Shown piece by piece: positions 38,426 through 64,000 of a stretch of DNA of 64,000 bases; position 1 is the stretch's first letter, and each line of letters opens with the position of its first letter. The position numbers and the translations under genes are program-made. Source of the stretch: Polyangiaceae bacterium (GTDB taxonomy: Bacteria; Myxococcota_A; Polyangia; Polyangiales; Polyangiaceae). The stretch covers positions 19,081-83,080 of the forward strand of contig JAQSWN010000023.1 of NCBI GenBank assembly GCA_029266615.1, in the 5' to 3' direction. A model generated the notes under the pieces. That model was not told the origin of the DNA, made no database searches, and was given only the letters and a program-made list of their open reading frames with translations.

Positions 38426-38749
38426 ACGGTACCGCTCCTCCGTTCATGCCACCACTCGGCCGGGCGCCGGGGCCGGTTGCGGGCGGTGCGGCGGTTCGGC
38501 AGCGCGGCGGATTGTTACGGATGCCCTGCCGTCGCCGACACCGCCTTACCCGTCAGCGAGCAACAAAGCCCGGAAGGAAATGCTGCAAAAGGCGCGGGGC
38601 TTCTTCCCGCGCGAAGCGAGCGGAGCGAGCGGAGCGTAGCGAGACAGAGCGCCTAGCTGGTTCGGACCAGGCTCCCTAGATCCGAGCGGGGCCTGGCGCG
38701 TCCAATGTTGGTGCTTCCGGCCGTCACTCATGCAAATCTCGGCAGCCTC
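38426..38749. other. Intergenic region between divergent genes
   Basis: It should hold promoters for both the Uma2-family and kinase genes. Visible features are a strong hairpin at 38592-38612 and an imperfect GCGAGCGGA-type direct repeat tract at 38611-38650. No gene is seen. Confidence 0.5.
38587..38612 (-). terminator. Hairpin followed by T-run on the minus strand
   Basis: A 7-bp perfect stem (GCGCGGG 38592-38598, CCCGCGC 38606-38612) with a 7-base loop is followed, reading the minus strand, by CTTTTGC. It fits an intrinsic terminator that would stop antisense transcripts coming from the kinase gene before the Uma2 gene. Confidence 0.4.
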
Positions 38750-40486
38750 ATGAAGTGCGATGCGTGCGGTCATGAAAATATCGATGGTGCGCGCTTCTGC
38801 GCCAAGTGCGGCGGCTTGATGCCGGTCGAGCCCGAGAAGGGGCAAGACGCGATGATCGGCCAGCTCATCGGCGGCCGGTACCGAATCACGGGCATCCTCG
38901 GCGAAGGCGGGATGGGCATCGTCTACGTGGGCGAGCAGCAAATGGGCTCGACCGTGCGCAAGGTCGCGATCAAGACCTTGCACCAGCACCTCTCCAAGGA
39001 CCCATCCGTGCTGGCGCGCTTCCACCGCGAGTGCGGCACCGTCGCGCAGCTGGAGCACCCCAACACCATCAAGTTCTACGACTTCGGCGCGACCGCGGAC
39101 GGCACGCTCTACATCGCGATGGAGTTCGTCGCCGGGAGGCCCTTGGCGGACTTGGTGCAAGAAGGGCCGATGCCGCCGGATCGCGTGATCAAGATCATGC
39201 GGCAGGTGTGCGGTGCGCTGGACGAAGCGCACATGCAGGGCGTCATTCACCGCGACTTGAAGCCGGAAAACATCGTCCTCACGAACCGGGCGGGGGAGAC
39301 GGATTTCGTCAAGGTGCTGGACTTCGGCATCGCTGCGCGCACGGAGTCGGCCGACGCCGCGAAGGAAGCGAAGCTCACTCAACAGGGCATGGTGCTCGGC
39401 ACACCGCCTTACATGAGCCCCGAGCAATTCACCGGCAAAGCGTTGGACGCCCGCAGCGACATCTACTCGCTGGCGGTGATGTCCTACGAGATGCTCACCG
39501 GAAAGCTGCCGTTCGAGGCGGACACGCCGTGGCAGTGGGCGACGCAGCACATGACCGCGCAGCCCATCCCGTTCGAGGTCTCCGCGCCGGCCAAGAACAT
39601 TCCGGAGGGAATGCGCCGCGCGATCCTCAAGGGCCTGTCCAAGGACCGCGACCAGCGCGAGTCGAGCGCGCGCGAGTTCTTCACGGACCTTTCGGACGGC
39701 GGCCGCATGACCGTGGAAGCGAACCCGGCGGAGACCGCCGCGGCCGCGCGCACCGGCACGGCCGCGATGGACGCCGTGCCTGCGTTCGTATCGTCTCCGG
39801 CTGCCGCGGGGCCACTGATGGGCTCGCCCCACCCGGCTCCGACGCCCATGGCGGTCTCAGCCGCTCCAGTACCGCGCGCGCCGCAACGAACGGCGGGCGG
39901 CGGCGGCGGCAGTGGCAAAGGCCTCATCTTCGGCCTCGTCGGTGTGGCCGCCGTGCTCCTCGGCGCCATCGGCATCATCCTCATGAAGGGCAGCAAGCAG
40001 GACAACACGGACCTGCCGCCCATCGCCGTCAACACCACGCCGGCGACCACCTCGGCCGCCGGCCCTGCCGAGATCAAGCCGCTCGACCCCGTTCCGGAGC
40101 CCACCCCCACCACGGATCCGGCGCCGAGCACGGGCGGCACCACCGGAAGCACGGCGGAGCCCAATAAGCCGGCCACGGGCGGCACCACTAAGCCGACGAC
40201 CCCGTCGACCACCACGCCCAAGCCTCCCGCTGGCGATCCGTGTGACGCTTGCAAGGCCGCCGCCGCGAGCGGAAACGCCACCGGGGTTCAAGCTGCCATC
40301 AACCGCTGCACGGACGCGGGCAAGCAGGCCGAGTGCCGCTCGGCGTTGTCCCGCACGGCGGTCAGCACCATTCAATCCACCGCCCGAAACGGCAATTGCG
40401 ACCGCGCCAAAGCGCTGGTTGCGGCGGCCGAAGCAGCCGGCGTTAAGGGTGCGGCCCGTGGGCTGAACGGCACGAGCTGCAAGTAA
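38750..40486 (+). CDS. Hanks-type Ser/Thr protein kinase with N-terminal zinc ribbon, 578 aa
   Basis: Residues 1-22 form a CxxC...CxxC zinc ribbon (MKCDACGHENIDG, FCAKCGG). The kinase domain (about 44-300) has GEGGMGIVYV glycine loop, VAIKTL (Lys75), HRDLKPEN (168-175), DFG (191-193) and GTPPYMSPEQ activation segment, so it should be active. A low-complexity linker precedes a single TM (about 393-415, GLIFGLVGVAAVLLGAIGII), followed by a Thr/Pro-rich extracytoplasmic stalk and a small C-terminal domain with paired Cys (DPCDACKAAA, NGNCDRAKALV). Such kinases are abundant in myxobacteria. The ATG at 38750 places the zinc ribbon at the N-terminus; an in-frame ATG at 38705 is an alternative. Confidence 0.9.
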   Translation: MKCDACGHENIDGARFCAKCGGLMPVEPEKGQDAMIGQLIGGRYRITGILGEGGMGIVYVGEQQMGSTVRKVAIKTLHQHLSKDPSVLARFHRECGTVAQLEHPNTIKFYDFGATADGTLYIAMEFVAGRPLADLVQEGPMPPDRVIKIMRQVCGALDEAHMQGVIHRDLKPENIVLTNRAGETDFVKVLDFGIAARTESADAAKEAKLTQQGMVLGTPPYMSPEQFTGKALDARSDIYSLAVMSYEMLTGKLPFEADTPWQWATQHMTAQPIPFEVSAPAKNIPEGMRRAILKGLSKDRDQRESSAREFFTDLSDGGRMTVEANPAETAAAARTGTAAMDAVPAFVSSPAAAGPLMGSPHPAPTPMAVSAAPVPRAPQRTAGGGGGSGKGLIFGLVGVAAVLLGAIGIILMKGSKQDNTDLPPIAVNTTPATTSAAGPAEIKPLDPVPEPTPTTDPAPSTGGTTGSTAEPNKPATGGTTKPTTPSTTTPKPPAGDPCDACKAAAASGNATGVQAAINRCTDAGKQAECRSALSRTAVSTIQSTARNGNCDRAKALVAAAEAAGVKGAARGLNGTSCK

Positions 40487-57213: not shown

Positions 57214-57783
57214 CTACGCGGGAGATGCCGGCGCGTGGCAGGTGCAGTCGCGGCAGCCGTCATCCGCGCAGCTACCGCAGCAGCGCCGGAGCTGGACCTT
57301 CAGCGCCTCGCGCGCGCGGAAGACGCGCACCGCCGCGTTGCCACTGGTGATGCCCTGGGTCTCGGCGAAGTCTTTGACCGGTACGCCTTCGACCTCGACC
57401 GCCTGCAGAGCGGCGGCGTATTCAGGCTTGAGGTTCCGCGCGAGCCCCGTGATGCATTGGCACACGGCCGCGTCCGTCTCCGGCGCGACTTCCGTCGTTA
57501 GCTCGTTGGAAAACGCCTCCAAAGACCGGGCCGCGACGCCGCTCCGGCGCTGGTAGTCGGTCACGGCGTTGCGGAGGATGCGGTAGAACCACGCCACCGC
57601 TGACTCCTCTTGCTCGAGCTGTCCCACCTTCGTGAGGCTGCGGGTAAACGCCTCTTGCAAGATGTCCTCGGCTACGGCCCGACTCCCGACGCGGCGCTCT
57701 AGGAAACCCAGGAACTCATGGCGTTGGGCCACGAGGCGGGCCAACACGTCTGGTGACGGAGCTGATTCGCTGACTTCGGACAC
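57214..57783 (-). CDS. Sigma-70-family factor with Cys-rich C-terminus, 189 aa
   Basis: Sigma region 2 has FLGFLERRVGSRAVAEDILQEAFTRSLTKV and AWFYRILRNAVTDYQRR; region 4 holds LKPEYAAALQAVEVEGVPVKDFAETQGITSGNAAVRVFRAREALK. The final 25 residues are Cys-rich (RRCCGSCADDGCRDCTC), likely a metal- or redox-sensing tail. It is separate from the upstream reading frame that happens to be open. The GTG at 57783 is the start, giving SEVSESAPSPDVLARL. No anti-sigma gene is adjacent. Confidence 0.85.
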   Translation of the reverse strand: MSEVSESAPSPDVLARLVAQRHEFLGFLERRVGSRAVAEDILQEAFTRSLTKVGQLEQEESAVAWFYRILRNAVTDYQRRSGVAARSLEAFSNELTTEVAPETDAAVCQCITGLARNLKPEYAAALQAVEVEGVPVKDFAETQGITSGNAAVRVFRAREALKVQLRRCCGSCADDGCRDCTCHAPASPA

Positions 57784-58007
57784 CGAGCTAGTTTGCGGCT
57801 CGCAGGCAAGCTTTTCAAGGGAGCCTACGAGCTCATGGTGCGGCCCAGCCGACAGCGTCGGGCATATTCGTCGGCGTCGTGCGGCCGGTCGTGTCGCCCA
57901 GGCCTCTGGGTGAGCGTGCCGCGACGAGGGAGCGAGTCCCATCTCTCGGCGCCGAATTTGGGCGCTGTAGCTCAGGGAGCTGCCTGCCACCAAGCAGCAA
58001 GCGCTCG

Positions 58008-58338
58008 TCACCGCCGCAGCGGACCTCGGTTCGCCCAGTAGCTCGGACGTCGTCGTGGGTGCATGAACGCAAGCACGTGAACGGTGTCGCCATGAATCAT
58101 GTACACGATGAGATGCGGAAACCGCCCACGCATGAGCGCACCGGACGTCTGCGATGCCGCCGAAAACCGAATAGCTAAGCGGAGCCTTTGCAAGCTCGAG
58201 CGTGCGTTCTCGCATCTCGAGTAAGAACGCAAGGCCTAGCCCGGGTACGCTCTCCTCGTATCGATCGCCAGCCTCTTCGAGCTCGGCCTCGGCCTCGGCC
58301 TCGGCCTCGGCCTCAGGCCCGACGATCAGCTCAGCCAT
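58008..58338 (-). pseudogene. Frameshifted RelE/ParE-type toxin
   Basis: The first half reads MAELIVGP, then a repeated acidic AEAEAEAE, LEEAGDRYEESVPGLGLAFLLEMRERTLELAKAPLSYS-type toxin sequence (start at 58338). Near 58141 the conserved end continues in another frame as GALMRGRFPHLIVYMIHGD and VHVLAFMHPRRRPSYWANR, the ParE C-terminus. One extra base in the minus-strand reading (CGGTGCG) accounts for the shift. The toxin is therefore probably inactive unless the frame is restored. Its ATG overlaps the antitoxin stop in ATGA, as in intact pairs. Confidence 0.8.
58282..58311 (+). repeat. 6-bp microsatellite in the toxin gene
   Basis: Five CTCGGC units in a row; on the minus strand it encodes the (AE)n run at the toxin's N-terminus. 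Six-base slippage would change length in units of two residues without shifting the frame, so it does not explain the frameshift at about 58141. Confidence 0.75.
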
Positions 58339-58568
58339 CAGCGCGCTTTGAGTCGAGCCTCGAGTCGGTCAAAAACCTCGTTGGCAGGTTTGCCCACGGA
58401 CTGCCCCGTGCGTACCCGCTCCGCGCGTCGTGCAATCTCGACTTCCCATTCGGCGGCAAGACCGGCCACGGACTCCTGCGGAGCGATGGCATCGACCACA
58501 ACGCGCCGTTCCTCGTCGGAAAGCTCGGCGGCAAGGGCAATCACCTGGCGGACGGCTGCGGTCGACAT
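58338..58568 (-). CDS. Antitoxin, addiction-module protein (ParD/RelB-like), 76 aa
   Basis: A short acidic helical protein, MSTAAVRQVIALAAELSDEERR, then WEVEIARRAERVRTGQS and VFDRLEARLKAR. It matches the addiction-module antitoxins that pair with RelE/ParE toxins. It would bind the toxin and its own promoter. The stop TGA at 58338-58340 overlaps the toxin ATG. ATG at 58568. Even with a dead toxin it may still be expressed. Confidence 0.8.
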   Translation of the reverse strand: MSTAAVRQVIALAAELSDEERRVVVDAIAPQESVAGLAAEWEVEIARRAERVRTGQSVGKPANEVFDRLEARLKAR

Positions 58569-59786: not shown

Positions 59787-61667
59787 TCAAACGGCTCGCT
59801 CCTCGTCGCCGGCCGTGGCGGAGATGGCAGTCGCCGCGGGATCCGAATCTTGGGACAATGCGGCGAGTGCGCGCCTAACAGCCTCCTCGTGGGACTTATT
59901 GCGATAAAGGCGGAGATATTCGATAGCATCTATGCCGGACACCGACGCCGCCTGAATCAAACTCCTGGAGTCAAATGTATTGTCTAGAAGAGTCAAAGCG
60001 GCCTCGGCGAACTCATCGATTTCCCCAACCAAGTATCCGAAGGTTCCAGCGGGCTCGTCGACGACGGGTAGCTTGCCAGCAGCAAGATGTGCCAGACCAT
60101 ATTTAACCTCTGCAAAAGGTTCTCGATTGCTTCGTGCAAACCATGCCGAGATCGCCATTTGCATTGATCTGCGCCAGAGATCCAATGCTTTCGTGGCATC
60201 GGTTTCGAGGCGTGACGCGAAGAAGCCGCACCGAATGAGGAACCGACTAGTTGACCACGCATCCCGTTCGCAGCGCGTCTCGGCGCGCCGCAGACGTTGT
60301 TGTCGTAGAGCTTGCCATGCCGCCTCCAGCTCCGCGGTAGATTCGTTGTTCGCGGCCAGCGCCAGACCACCCAGCCGTTCAGTCCATTGCACGGTTGGCG
60401 AGTATCGCTCCGCGATACCAGGGTCGCTGGCACACAAGATTTCCAGGAGCCATGGCCAACTATCGCGAAGGATATGGGTAGCCTCCTCCCTCTCCTGCGG
60501 AAATTCACGCTCGGCTCTTGCTGGTGCAAGCAACCAAAGCCCAAGCAGGCTTCGCGAGTGATCGCAGACCGCTCGCGTGCGCGAAAGCCGCAGCAAATCA
60601 GACAGTGTGCCGATGAAGCCAGAATAGGAGATGCCGATGGCAAGCTGTAGATCTTGTCGCAGCCGAGCGCCCTTGGACTCCGGATTTCCCGATTGTGCTT
60701 TGACTAGCGAGCGAGCGGCCAGCTCGATGAGCAGGGTTTCGCCGTCTACTCGTCCCTTGATTGCTGTCGCAAGCTCGCGGCGATATTCTTCGCCCGCGCT
60801 GATCGCTGAACCGCCATTCCCCTCCGTCCAAGAGAGACGCTCGGCGGCGGATTCCAGGAGTCCGACCGCTTTTCGCTCGAGGATGAAGACGAGCGCACTG
60901 GCCGTGCGCGCTCCGCTCTGATCATAAGCCGATGGCGCGAGTCGAATCCAGTCGAGGACTGACTCGGGGGTGCGGTCGAGTTGTGTGTACCAAAGCAACG
61001 CCTCAACCAAAGTTGGAATCGGCAGCGCGTCCAAAAATTGAAGCCAAGCCTTGACATCCAGGGCTCGGAGGACCGCTGACGCGAGGAGCTCTGCGGAGCC
61101 ACCGAGTCCAGGAAAATTGCCTTCATGCCAAGAAGGCACCGGCCGTTTAAGCTCCGTCTGCCAGCGTTCTAGCTCGTCGGACGCCTGGTATTCGTCATCA
61201 TTGATCGAACCGAGTTTGAAGTTGAGCTTCCGCAGTAGAGATAGCCAATCGCCCGCACGCTCACTTCGCGCGATAAGGTCTGCGACGACGTCAAGGTCAA
61301 CGTAGAACTCCACTTTGGCGGCAGCGGCGAGTACTTCGAGGCTCGGTTCGTGGCTGCATATAAATTTGGCTATTGCACCGCTCACGACAACGGTGACTTC
61401 TGGGTCACTTAACTTCGTGACGACTTGGCCGTCATTCGCGTGCGGTCCACCGACTATGTTTTCAACCAGCTCTCGAAGCTCTTCATGGTCAGGAAGCGGC
61501 AGGTTTTGGCCGTAGGCGTCACCAAGCGTGACGGCCAGGGAATGAAACAGCTCCTGATCACCGAGGGCTGCAATGCGCCGACTGGCCTCCAACTTCTTGC
61601 GAAGCCATTGCTCGTGCTGCTCGTCTGATCGAGCTAAGTCCGCAAACGGGCGGCCTCCGGTCGTCAA
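59787..61667 (-). CDS. Large protein of unknown function in the right-edge cassette, 626 aa
   Basis: No domain is recognised. It is mostly alpha-helical, with several Leu/Ala/Trp-rich segments: ELVENIVGGPHANDGQVVTKL, LPIPTLVEALLWYTQLDRTPE and RQALLERKAVGLL-like helices; no nuclease, ATPase or TM motif was seen. It resembles helical-repeat scaffold or sensor proteins. The TTG at 61667 is chosen since GGAAAGGA lies 6 bases upstream and it overlaps the previous stop in TTGA; another TTG at 61685 is possible. It is the last gene of a tightly coupled cassette. Confidence 0.72.
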   Translation of the reverse strand: MTTGGRPFADLARSDEQHEQWLRKKLEASRRIAALGDQELFHSLAVTLGDAYGQNLPLPDHEELRELVENIVGGPHANDGQVVTKLSDPEVTVVVSGAIAKFICSHEPSLEVLAAAAKVEFYVDLDVVADLIARSERAGDWLSLLRKLNFKLGSINDDEYQASDELERWQTELKRPVPSWHEGNFPGLGGSAELLASAVLRALDVKAWLQFLDALPIPTLVEALLWYTQLDRTPESVLDWIRLAPSAYDQSGARTASALVFILERKAVGLLESAAERLSWTEGNGGSAISAGEEYRRELATAIKGRVDGETLLIELAARSLVKAQSGNPESKGARLRQDLQLAIGISYSGFIGTLSDLLRLSRTRAVCDHSRSLLGLWLLAPARAEREFPQEREEATHILRDSWPWLLEILCASDPGIAERYSPTVQWTERLGGLALAANNESTAELEAAWQALRQQRLRRAETRCERDAWSTSRFLIRCGFFASRLETDATKALDLWRRSMQMAISAWFARSNREPFAEVKYGLAHLAAGKLPVVDEPAGTFGYLVGEIDEFAEAALTLLDNTFDSRSLIQAASVSGIDAIEYLRLYRNKSHEEAVRRALAALSQDSDPAATAISATAGDEERAV

Positions 61668-62218
61668 GATTCCATCCTTTCCCAAAGGCGTTCGAAGAAG
61701 TCAACGGCGTTCGTGTTGATCTCCGGCCAGGGACCAGAGGCGGCCGAGAGGCAGTTGCCGCTACCACAAGATGCATATCCGAAATGCCACAGGTTGTCGT
61801 CGACGATGACGAAGCGATCGTGAGCGAAGGGAAAGACCGGTGGCCTCCGCGTCAAGCGGTCCAGCCACTGCACGCGTGTGGGAGCCATTCGCATCGCCCC
61901 CCGTGGCCGCCCCCGGCTCCAAGCAGCATCGGATGTCGCCCTCATTTTTTCTAGTCTGCTGTGCTTGTCTTGTATGCGCTCACTTACTATTCGTACGTCG
62001 CGAACCACTGCGCCTGCCAGCGCTCGAAGCAGCCCTTGGTAGCCGTGCTCGATGAAATGCTGGTCCAGCACCCAGATCCGCGTCGTCGCCCGCCAAGCGT
62101 GCTCAATGAAGGTGCTCAAATATGCAGGGTTTGGTAGTGAGCCGAGGCGTTGCAGCTCATCTCGATTTGGAAATCGAGAAAGCGCGCCGTCCGGACCGAG
62201 GAAGTGGAGGTCGGTCAT
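61664..62218 (-). CDS. PLD-like protein with HxR motif, 184 aa
   Basis: The PLD-type active-site region is H133-D-R135-F-V-I-V-D140 (HDRFVIVDD), in which the usual Lys of HxK is Arg. WVLDQHFIEHGY and VRDVRIVSERI form the earlier strands, and HFGYASCGSG follows. There is a single half-domain, so a dimer would be needed for a full PLD-type active site. PLD-fold proteins in similar contexts are nucleases or phospholipases. The ATG at 62218 overlaps the upstream stop in ATGA; the stop overlaps the next start by 4 bases. Confidence 0.78.
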   Translation of the reverse strand: MTDLHFLGPDGALSRFPNRDELQRLGSLPNPAYLSTFIEHAWRATTRIWVLDQHFIEHGYQGLLRALAGAVVRDVRIVSERIQDKHSRLEKMRATSDAAWSRGRPRGAMRMAPTRVQWLDRLTRRPPVFPFAHDRFVIVDDNLWHFGYASCGSGNCLSAASGPWPEINTNAVDFFERLWERMES

Positions 62219-63828
62219 TTGCCTCCCCCCGCGAGCTCTTGAATACGCTCCATCAATCCTACCGAGGCGTCCGGATTCTTCCAAACGCTCTCTATTTCAG
62301 CAGAGACCTCGCCTGGCGCTGGCAACGCGACGAGCATGGTGCCGCGCGAGCCGAATTCGTTCAGCGATGATCCGAGCAGCCATGCTCGGCCGTCAGCGAG
62401 GATGAACCTGTCGTGAATCGCGGGCTTGCCCCGCATCAGCCGCAGGGTTGTCGGATTCAGCAAGCGATCGCGTTGGCTAGTCACGATCTCTGATCTTAGA
62501 CGTTCAAGGTGCAAAGCCTCGAGAGCCGTTCCCTTCGCTGACTCGCCCGTGATTGCAATCTGCTGGAGCCCTTTGCTAGACGTGAGGACCCGTACTTCGG
62601 CAGCCTGACTGGTGATGGAAGGCAGCCACATCTTGACATCATCCGCCGAGAAATACGGATCGACGACGAGAGCACTGCGCTTCGCTGTCGCCAGAATATT
62701 CTGAATGGCTTTTTCCGCTTCCATGACATCACCGCGGAACCACATCTGTCGTTCCCTTGCTCCGGCACCGCTGGCAAGACGATGTTGAACCGTTTGCAGC
62801 ACCTGCGCTGCAGAGTTGACGACGTCACCTCCTCCCACCACGATAGGGCGGTCGCTCTCACCTACAGGGATTCGGCGCGTTGTCGACGGTCTTCCCTTGC
62901 GAGCCGGGAGTGGGACACGGCGCTCGCCTGAAATCAGGTTCATTTCAATGTGGATGCTCCGTAAGAAGGAGTACGGTCCTTCTTCCACGAGCAGGCCGAG
63001 TTCTTCGTGCATGACTTTGATAGCGATCTGCTCGACGTCTTCCCGCACCTGCATGCGGCTAAATGGCGCACGAGGTTGCGTCCTGCAAAGCAGACGGTTG
63101 CCGGTCGAACGCTCTTCGAAGATCTCGACGATGAGCTTCTCAATACGACTGCCGCGCCTGGGTACGAGGTCGATCAACACAGCGCGATCTGGGCCGTCGT
63201 CGGGAGCGTCAAGCCGCGTCGACACGGACCGCAGCACCGGCAAGGGCTCGAAGAAGTGGGCGGATTGAAGTAGCTCCGGGATGGGGCCGAAAGCAATTCC
63301 GAGCTGTTGTTGCAGCGAGCCGATCAACTTGCTGCGTTCGTCTTGCCTGAGTAGGTCGATCTGGGAACCATCTTCTGTGAGGAGATGATTGCCACGAGTT
63401 GCTGCCTCAAGCGCGCCTAAGATGGGTAAGGCAGCGGGCTTGTGAATCGTCACGACGCCAGGCCACTTCGGCTCGTTCAATCGAGCTTCCAAGGCAATGG
63501 CACTGCTCAGCGGTGACTGCCTCCAGGGTGGTGCCCAGGTACCCTGCGCCACCAGTGCCTCGTACCAACTGTAGGCGGATTGCGCGGTCGCTTCCCAACT
63601 CTCAAAGTAAACCGTCCACTCGCTATCCCGACCGAGGCGCTGGTCCCACGTCGGATACCGGTCAACTCGCGGCACTTCGTCAGGCACCAAATTGACTTGA
63701 GCATGCACGAGGTATGAACTCTTGGTCGTGCGATTGAAGACCCACGTCAAGCTGACGACTGCCCGGGAACAGCCAACTAGTGACACCGTGGTCGAAGTGC
63801 TCTCGATTTCCGTTCTGGGATCGTGCAT
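62215..63828 (-). CDS. Two-domain protein with C-terminal PLD-like domain, 537 aa
   Basis: The first about 350 residues form an unrecognised domain with WTVYFESWEATAQSAYSWYE, EPKWPGVVTIHKPAAL and RAVLIDLVPRRGSRIEKLIV. The C-terminal part (about 365-515) is PLD-like: SALVVDPYFSADDVKMWL, VRVLTSSKGL and the motif H472-D-R474-F-I-L-A-D479 (IHDRFILADG), followed by WLLGSSLNEFGSRGTM. The same HxR form and DxxF strand recur in the small protein, so the two probably share an origin. It may be a nuclease-like effector with a sensing N-terminus. ATG at 63828, 18 bases after the upstream stop. Confidence 0.78.
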   Translation of the reverse strand: MHDPRTEIESTSTTVSLVGCSRAVVSLTWVFNRTTKSSYLVHAQVNLVPDEVPRVDRYPTWDQRLGRDSEWTVYFESWEATAQSAYSWYEALVAQGTWAPPWRQSPLSSAIALEARLNEPKWPGVVTIHKPAALPILGALEAATRGNHLLTEDGSQIDLLRQDERSKLIGSLQQQLGIAFGPIPELLQSAHFFEPLPVLRSVSTRLDAPDDGPDRAVLIDLVPRRGSRIEKLIVEIFEERSTGNRLLCRTQPRAPFSRMQVREDVEQIAIKVMHEELGLLVEEGPYSFLRSIHIEMNLISGERRVPLPARKGRPSTTRRIPVGESDRPIVVGGGDVVNSAAQVLQTVQHRLASGAGARERQMWFRGDVMEAEKAIQNILATAKRSALVVDPYFSADDVKMWLPSITSQAAEVRVLTSSKGLQQIAITGESAKGTALEALHLERLRSEIVTSQRDRLLNPTTLRLMRGKPAIHDRFILADGRAWLLGSSLNEFGSRGTMLVALPAPGEVSAEIESVWKNPDASVGLMERIQELAGGGK

Positions 63829-63846
63829 TGGGAGGGCCTCGGAAGG

Positions 63847-64000
63847 CTAGAAGCCGAAGTCGGGGTCTGCATCCATCGGGATGGTGAGATTCGTGATGAC
63901 GAGCAGGTCGAGTAGCTCGCTCCGATCCATGAAGATCACCTGCCGGCGTTGCTCGTTGCCGAGCTGCTCGATGAGCAGCTTGCGAGCTGCCTTGGTGATC
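63847..64000 (-). CDS. Partial gene at the window edge (C-terminal 50 residues seen)
   Basis: Only the end of the coding sequence lies in the window, and its start is beyond the right edge. The visible part reads ITKAARKLLIEQLGNEQRRQ then VIFMDRSELLDLLVITNLTI, ending DADPDFGF and TAG. The helix and strand pattern is not enough to assign a family. It belongs to the same strand and cassette as the PLD-like gene downstream, separated by 18 bases. Confidence 0.65.
   Translation of the reverse strand, partial: ITKAARKLLIEQLGNEQRRQVIFMDRSELLDLLVITNLTIPMDADPDFGF

Follow-up and report, generated by a model that had tools for sequence, protein, structure and literature searches.

We examined the right end of a 64,000-nucleotide stretch of DNA from a Polyangiaceae bacterium (contig JAQSWN010000023.1; the whole stretch is called the window here), where a gene of the VPA1262 family, a gene for a small protein with a phospholipase D (PLD) half-domain and a gene for a large protein form a compact cassette on the minus strand. 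These three complete genes, numbered 1 to 3 in reading order, span 63828-59787 and are preceded by the tail of a fourth. The cut gene ends at 63847 and is separated by 18 bases from the ATG of gene 1 at 63828. Genes 1 and 2 overlap by 4 bases (ATGA), as do genes 2 and 3 (TTGA), and the start of gene 3 agrees with the start positions in close homologues. The GC content of 59787-64000 is 0.589, compared with a minimum of 0.608 and a mean of 0.663 for 4.2-kb segments over positions 1-59786. A first-pass annotation made from the sequence alone had reported both the four packed minus-strand genes with their 18-, 4- and 4-base junctions and the lower GC of the stretch, and both descriptions were reproduced. 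The contig ends at window base 64000, so no further sequence is available to the right of the cut gene. A contig of 140,812 bases, longer than the window's own (83,080), is listed in the 90% cluster of the gene 2 protein; the locus may exist in a longer version.

Table 1. Genes at the right end of the window (positions in the window; aa, amino acids).
Feature	Position	Strand	Remarks
Cut fourth gene	63847..64000	-	C-terminal 50 residues; gene interrupted by contig end
Gene 1, VPA1262-N protein, 537 aa	62215..63828	-	NF040700 142.6 bits (cut-off 80)
Gene 2, small PLD half-domain protein, 184 aa	61664..62218	-	HDRF-x3-D-x6-G motif
Gene 3, large protein, 626 aa, modelled all-helical, solenoid-like	59787..61667	-	TTG start

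Gene 1 encodes an N-terminal beta-rich region, a beta-sandwich (residues ~197-291) and a PLD half-domain (~351-535) with the motif H472-D-R474-F-x3-D479-x6-GSSLN490. The VPA1262-like N-terminus suspected for this protein was borne out, as residues 153-517 pass the cut-off of the VPA1262_N_dom model (NF040700; Table 1). The full-length model VPA1262_fam (NF040699; 325 bits, 1026 positions) was failed, with 31.8 bits over 130 residues. We also considered that full-length VPA1262 proteins might be fusions of genes 1 and 3, and obtained no support for this idea: none of 23 large proteins matched NF040699 at E <= 0.1, and the family occurred in none of 14 control genomes. A search for solved relatives of gene 1 gave two chance-level matches by sequence (E 0.18) and none by profiles. 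In structure comparisons, the PLD part aligned with SauUSI (Z 13.1, root-mean-square deviation (rmsd) 2.8, 148 residues aligned), NucT (Z 12.9, rmsd 2.9, 141 aligned), Nuc (Z 12.6, rmsd 3.1, 144 aligned), NgoAVII R (Z 10.7, rmsd 3.8, 155 aligned) and BfiI (Z 9.8, rmsd 3.2, 149 aligned). The C-terminal part of gene 1 is predicted from its model to adopt a PLD fold, near nucleases.

The canonical PLD motif, HxKx4Dx6GSxN, contains a Lys, and PLD enzymes bring together two His motifs per active site, either within one chain or across a dimer. Genes 1 and 2 have one motif per chain, with HxR in place of HxK. His, Asp and Gly are kept in both proteins; Asn is kept in gene 1 and lost in gene 2. By hhalign, the PLD regions of the two proteins are homologous (E 1.2e-12), and both proteins carry HDRF, as the first-pass annotation had proposed. 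Its view that the Arg is unusual did not hold within the VPA1262 family, where HDR is the rule: it is present in 34/34 genes read, along with most of the remaining motif, and none of these genes has Lys.

For gene 3, no Pfam, NCBIfam or PADLOC match was obtained at E <= 1, in line with its earlier description as a large protein lacking a recognisable domain. Modelling predicts that it folds as a solenoid-like helical protein.

Whole-genome scans of 183 genomes of the order revealed a strict linkage between gene 1 and gene 3. The VPA1262 profile detected 11 genes in 10 genomes, and the large-gene profile detected 11 genes in the same 10 genomes, one of them cut by a contig end (G176) and one a fragment (G011). 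Adjacency was mutual: 11/11 VPA1262 genes lie beside a large gene and 11/11 large genes beside VPA1262. Recovery of these large genes was expected because the profile was partly built from these loci; solitary copies could still have matched, and none did at E <= 0.001 in the 183 genomes. The small-PLD profile gave three full matches (>200 bits), all inside cassettes, and the 11 further matches fall on the PLD domains of the VPA1262 genes themselves. Homologues of the two PLD-like genes away from the large gene, named beforehand as evidence against a coupled set, were not seen within the order. The VPA1262 gene and the large gene form the core of the cassette and are inseparable in these genomes.

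The association extends to the wider set of loci (numbered L; genomes are numbered G). A large open reading frame (ORF) of 505-748 aa follows VPA1262 in 30 of the 34 loci read, and in 8/8 plasmid records with a VPA1262 match. The other four loci end at contig borders (L009, L036) or have truncated frames (L004, L038); L004 adjoins a transposase-like gene and has VPA1262 itself in two frames. We left out of the counts G080, in which the PLD motif matched in another protein (L039), L031, which is the same place as L002, and L045 (genome G475), a 140-residue VPA1262 piece on a 5.2-kb contig with no large frame. L048 is a near copy of L047 and was included in the 34 loci and excluded from the 27 large genes compared below. 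At L013 (8927-10564, Chitinophaga sedimenti), VPA1262 runs over three overlapping frames and is apparently frameshifted, while the adjoining large ORF is whole.

The large genes diverge considerably in sequence. The window's clade matched the other Myxococcota-type clade in a profile-profile comparison (E 1.9e-18), and the Bacteroidota/Bacillota large genes matched the two Myxococcota-type groups weakly, in the corresponding region (hhalign 0.0036 and 0.041). With leave-one-out profiles, in which close relatives such as L006 and L008 remained in each other's profiles, 22/27 large genes scored 9.8 to 197 bits higher than the best unrelated ORF. Of the rest, L030 was ahead by 3.6 bits only, and L013, L043, L049 and L053 were not above background. 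Two background rows corresponded to the truncated large gene of L038 and were set aside. Among the existing profiles, one matched the large gene of L058 (1.4e-10), and none matched its counterpart in L057 at E <= 0.1.

The third member of the cassette, the small PLD gene, is optional. A small HDR gene lies between VPA1262 and the large gene in the window and in L003, L029, L030, L047, L048, L049 and L058. On the gene-1 tree this three-gene form is scattered, which requires at least two gains or losses on a tree with several open forks and several long branches; it may have been gained a single time and then lost. At L046 (11086-11768, an Azospirillum plasmid) the small PLD gene is annotated with 160 aa, and the HDR stretch lies in a different reading frame.

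The cut fourth gene, which had been counted as a member of the coupled set, did not hold this place. The 50 C-terminal residues left in the window align with the ends of 326-332-residue proteins encoded on plasmids (L061, L062, L063) and in a genome (L064). Among the 39 plasmid records matching the tail, three were read (Ensifer, Klebsiella, Rhodococcus), and the 16-18 kb inspected in each contain no annotated VPA1262 gene. Elsewhere in the order the tail has a single match, in genome G013, in which whole-genome scans found neither VPA1262 nor the large gene. Because these ~330-residue homologues occur without VPA1262, the cut gene probably falls outside the core cassette, but co-transcription with gene 1 is possible in the window. 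No convincing Pfam family was found for the three plasmid homologues. Their EYGKD...QxKKGK pattern reads to us like that of a PD-(D/E)xK (Mrr-type) nuclease. The idea that the cut gene is a piece of an upstream helicase was unsupported.

The loci read come from five phyla, namely Myxococcota, Elusimicrobiota, Bacteroidota and Bacillota as well as Pseudomonadota, the latter through plasmids. The eight plasmid records belong to Azospirillum, Burkholderia glumae, Klebsiella variicola, Bradyrhizobium, Rhizobium, Methylorubrum and Gluconobacter, and some of these plasmids are typed as conjugative. On the gene-1 tree, L030, from the window's own order, clusters with Bacillota loci. Phage records gave no match to gene 1 or to the Klebsiella VPA1262, viral contigs gave none in a scan with one or two short patterns, and E. 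coli gave no copy of the Klebsiella cassette at megablast sensitivity.

A tight two-gene core with short overlaps and plasmid homes would also suit a toxin-antitoxin-like unit, with the PLD protein as toxin and the helical protein as its neutraliser, maintained for plasmid and island upkeep and defensive only as a by-product. The several broken copies (L004, L013, L038, L046) can be read in the same way. However, the would-be neutraliser is bigger than the toxin and was never found alone in the order. Moreover, L038 combines a whole VPA1262 frame with a truncated large gene, which would be costly if the toxin were left unrestrained. We consider this explanation unlikely.

Neighbour proteins from 15 loci, chosen by eye, were scanned against PADLOC, and 9/15 loci had a neighbour scoring at least 70 bits (none in L006, L029, L037, L049, L053 and L058); as a control, 1/10 long ORFs elsewhere in the window had a match this strong. 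The control match is a kinase-like protein (window 38705-40486, plus strand; PD-T4-6, 320 bits) and likely reflects generic kinase similarity. Directly upstream of the cassette lie PDC-M23A (298.6 bits) and PDC-M23B (1354 bits), HamB-like by lower-scoring matches, in L035; a DruE-like helicase with an MZB domain in L043 (DruE, 350); a PDC-M27C-like helicase in L034 (156.5 bits); PDC-S02 with a 4-base overlap in L038 (418.6); RloB with an AAA_21 protein in L005 (AbiLi, 346.8); a PLD-SNF2 helicase in L006; and an SMC-like ATPase in L046. Farther off we found NsnC (344.7) and RtcR (452.6) in L043, a Dsr1-like protein in L034, AbiJ (73.6) in L046, DruA (396.1) in L010, and TmtA (487.5) together with an Argonaute-associated restriction endonuclease-type protein in L007. 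In L052 (13278-19371, Methylorubrum plasmid pCMU01) two SIR2-family proteins follow the cassette, one of them Dsr2-like (600.6 bits).

A conserved upstream helicase as fourth member was rejected because the upstream genes vary by locus. No fixed upstream partner seems to be needed at all, because in L051 (Rhizobium) the pair is preceded by genes for sugar transport with their regulator, and in L049 it has no gene annotated within 900 bases upstream, as far as the incomplete gene tables of both loci go. Among the loci read, and in small numbers, helicases immediately upstream were confined to the two-gene form (assigned by Pfam/PADLOC in L006, L034, L035 and L043 and by eye in L008 and L036); none was seen at the three-gene loci (the window, L003, L029, L030, L046, L047, L049 and L058, with the window and L030 cut by contig ends).

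From this neighbourhood we infer that a defence role of the cassette is likely. The first-pass annotation had proposed an anti-phage role and expected the same gene order near defence genes in other genomes. For genes 1 to 3, linkage and neighbours bear out the gene order and favour the proposed anti-phage role; neither extends to the cut fourth gene. A stress or DNA-repair module with no anti-phage role would fit the presence of SOS-peptidase or ImuA/error-prone polymerase genes in the vicinity of L047, L048 and L050, yet it accounts poorly for the frequency of defence families among the scanned neighbours and for the patchy spread over phyla and plasmids, which better suits mobile defence. 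It appears improbable to us, even more so than the toxin-antitoxin-like unit.

We therefore lean, by a modest degree, towards a conserved chromosomal and plasmid cassette that acts as an anti-phage module, whose PLD subunits are predicted to dock on the helical protein and to cleave nucleic acid there. A more detailed version is tentative: the cassette might be a stand-alone anti-phage system built around a split PLD nuclease, with one HxR half-site per protein and a dedicated alpha-solenoid control, that also serves as a pluggable effector behind Hachiman-like, Druantia-like and SNF2 helicases. Because PLD half-domains work in pairs and each chain has a single motif here, we infer that genes 1 and 2 would pair to build one two-histidine phosphodiesterase site in which Arg replaces Lys; where gene 2 is missing, gene 1 would pair with itself. 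Gene 3, the constant partner, could be a scaffold or restraint for the enzyme or could present the target. The trigger would be infection, or whichever helicase or ATPase is encoded upstream.

Alternatively, the HxR domain could be a nucleic-acid-binding or structural half-domain, with a nearby nuclease or helicase doing the cutting and the cassette acting as sensor or adaptor. The missing Lys speaks for this, as do the DNA-binding protein TrmBL2, which has the same fold and tops the Foldseek list for gene 1, and the upstream partners with helicase or nuclease parts of their own (L006, L034, L035, L038, L043). On the other hand, pure binding would not require the conservation of HDR and of most of the remaining motif, no such partner is annotated directly upstream in L047, L049 and L051 (plasmid gene tables being incomplete), and the same Lys-to-Arg change in BrxL-HKD nucleases is called likely activity-preserving, a point argued rather than demonstrated in the accessible part of the source (PMC12839542). 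We regard a purely binding or structural role as doubtful, a little more so than the split-nuclease version of the anti-phage module.

Several known families and systems resemble this predicted anti-phage cassette in part. PDC-S05 is the best PADLOC match of gene 1 (1.3e-8) and, weakly, of gene 2 (8.1e-4), within the HDRF part; the match is limited to the PLD stretch (positions 153-285 of 306, 32.4 bits) and involves no partner gene. By PADLOC convention, the S number presumably marks a single-gene candidate. The VPA1262 family (NF040699/NF040700) is named after a gene of the Vibrio island VPaI-6; gene 1 passes its N-domain model but is about half as long as the full one, and the family definition includes no partner gene. 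The accessible part of PMC1464126 places this founding gene in a genomic island. PLD restriction enzymes and ATP-dependent systems such as NgoAVII/CglI, SauUSI and BfiI have HxK where the cassette has HxR, and its constant partner is a helical protein instead of a helicase. BrxL-HKD of BREX shares the Lys-to-Arg change in a defence PLD domain; its PLD is fused to an AAA+ protein inside BREX, in contrast to the separate cassette found here (PMC12839542, accessible part). Hachiman-, Druantia- and DISARM-type helicase systems come close by position, since the cassette lies directly behind PDC-M23A/B in L035 and the DruE-like helicase in L043. However, genes 1 to 3 match none of their PADLOC models, and the pair also occurs without such upstream genes. 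Neither HamA with HamB nor DruE was seen in the window's operon, which the contig end cuts. DISARM DrmC gave no match for genes 1-3 at E <= 1 and a weak one for 1/23 large proteins (0.018); the window's contig ends before the upstream region.

The VPA1262 label and PLD nucleases in defence are already known; the pair is without description in the literature searched. Full-text searches, whose coverage leaves out most subscription papers, gave no description of the VPA1262/large-gene pair, and the name VPA1262 led to papers on Vibrio parahaemolyticus. The accessible text of PMC13092281 mentions neither VPA1262 nor PLD. With this analysis, a functionless label and a series of accompanying 'hypothetical proteins' become a single unit that can be tested and whose partner is fixed. 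A portable effector, if that is what the cassette supplies, would account for some of the nuclease exchange among helicase-centred defences. Whether an HxR PLD domain cuts DNA is a question raised for BREX too, in the accessible part of PMC12839542, and the cassette could settle it.

Two further features of the window lie beyond gene 3. At 58008-58565 (minus strand), as judged from the frames, an antitoxin-like frame stops at 58338; the ParE/RelE-like toxin after it is divided between two frames and looks broken. At 57214-57760 (minus strand), the C-terminal part of the 57214-58338 ORF resembles an extracytoplasmic function (ECF) sigma factor with a cysteine-rich tail, again as judged from its frame.
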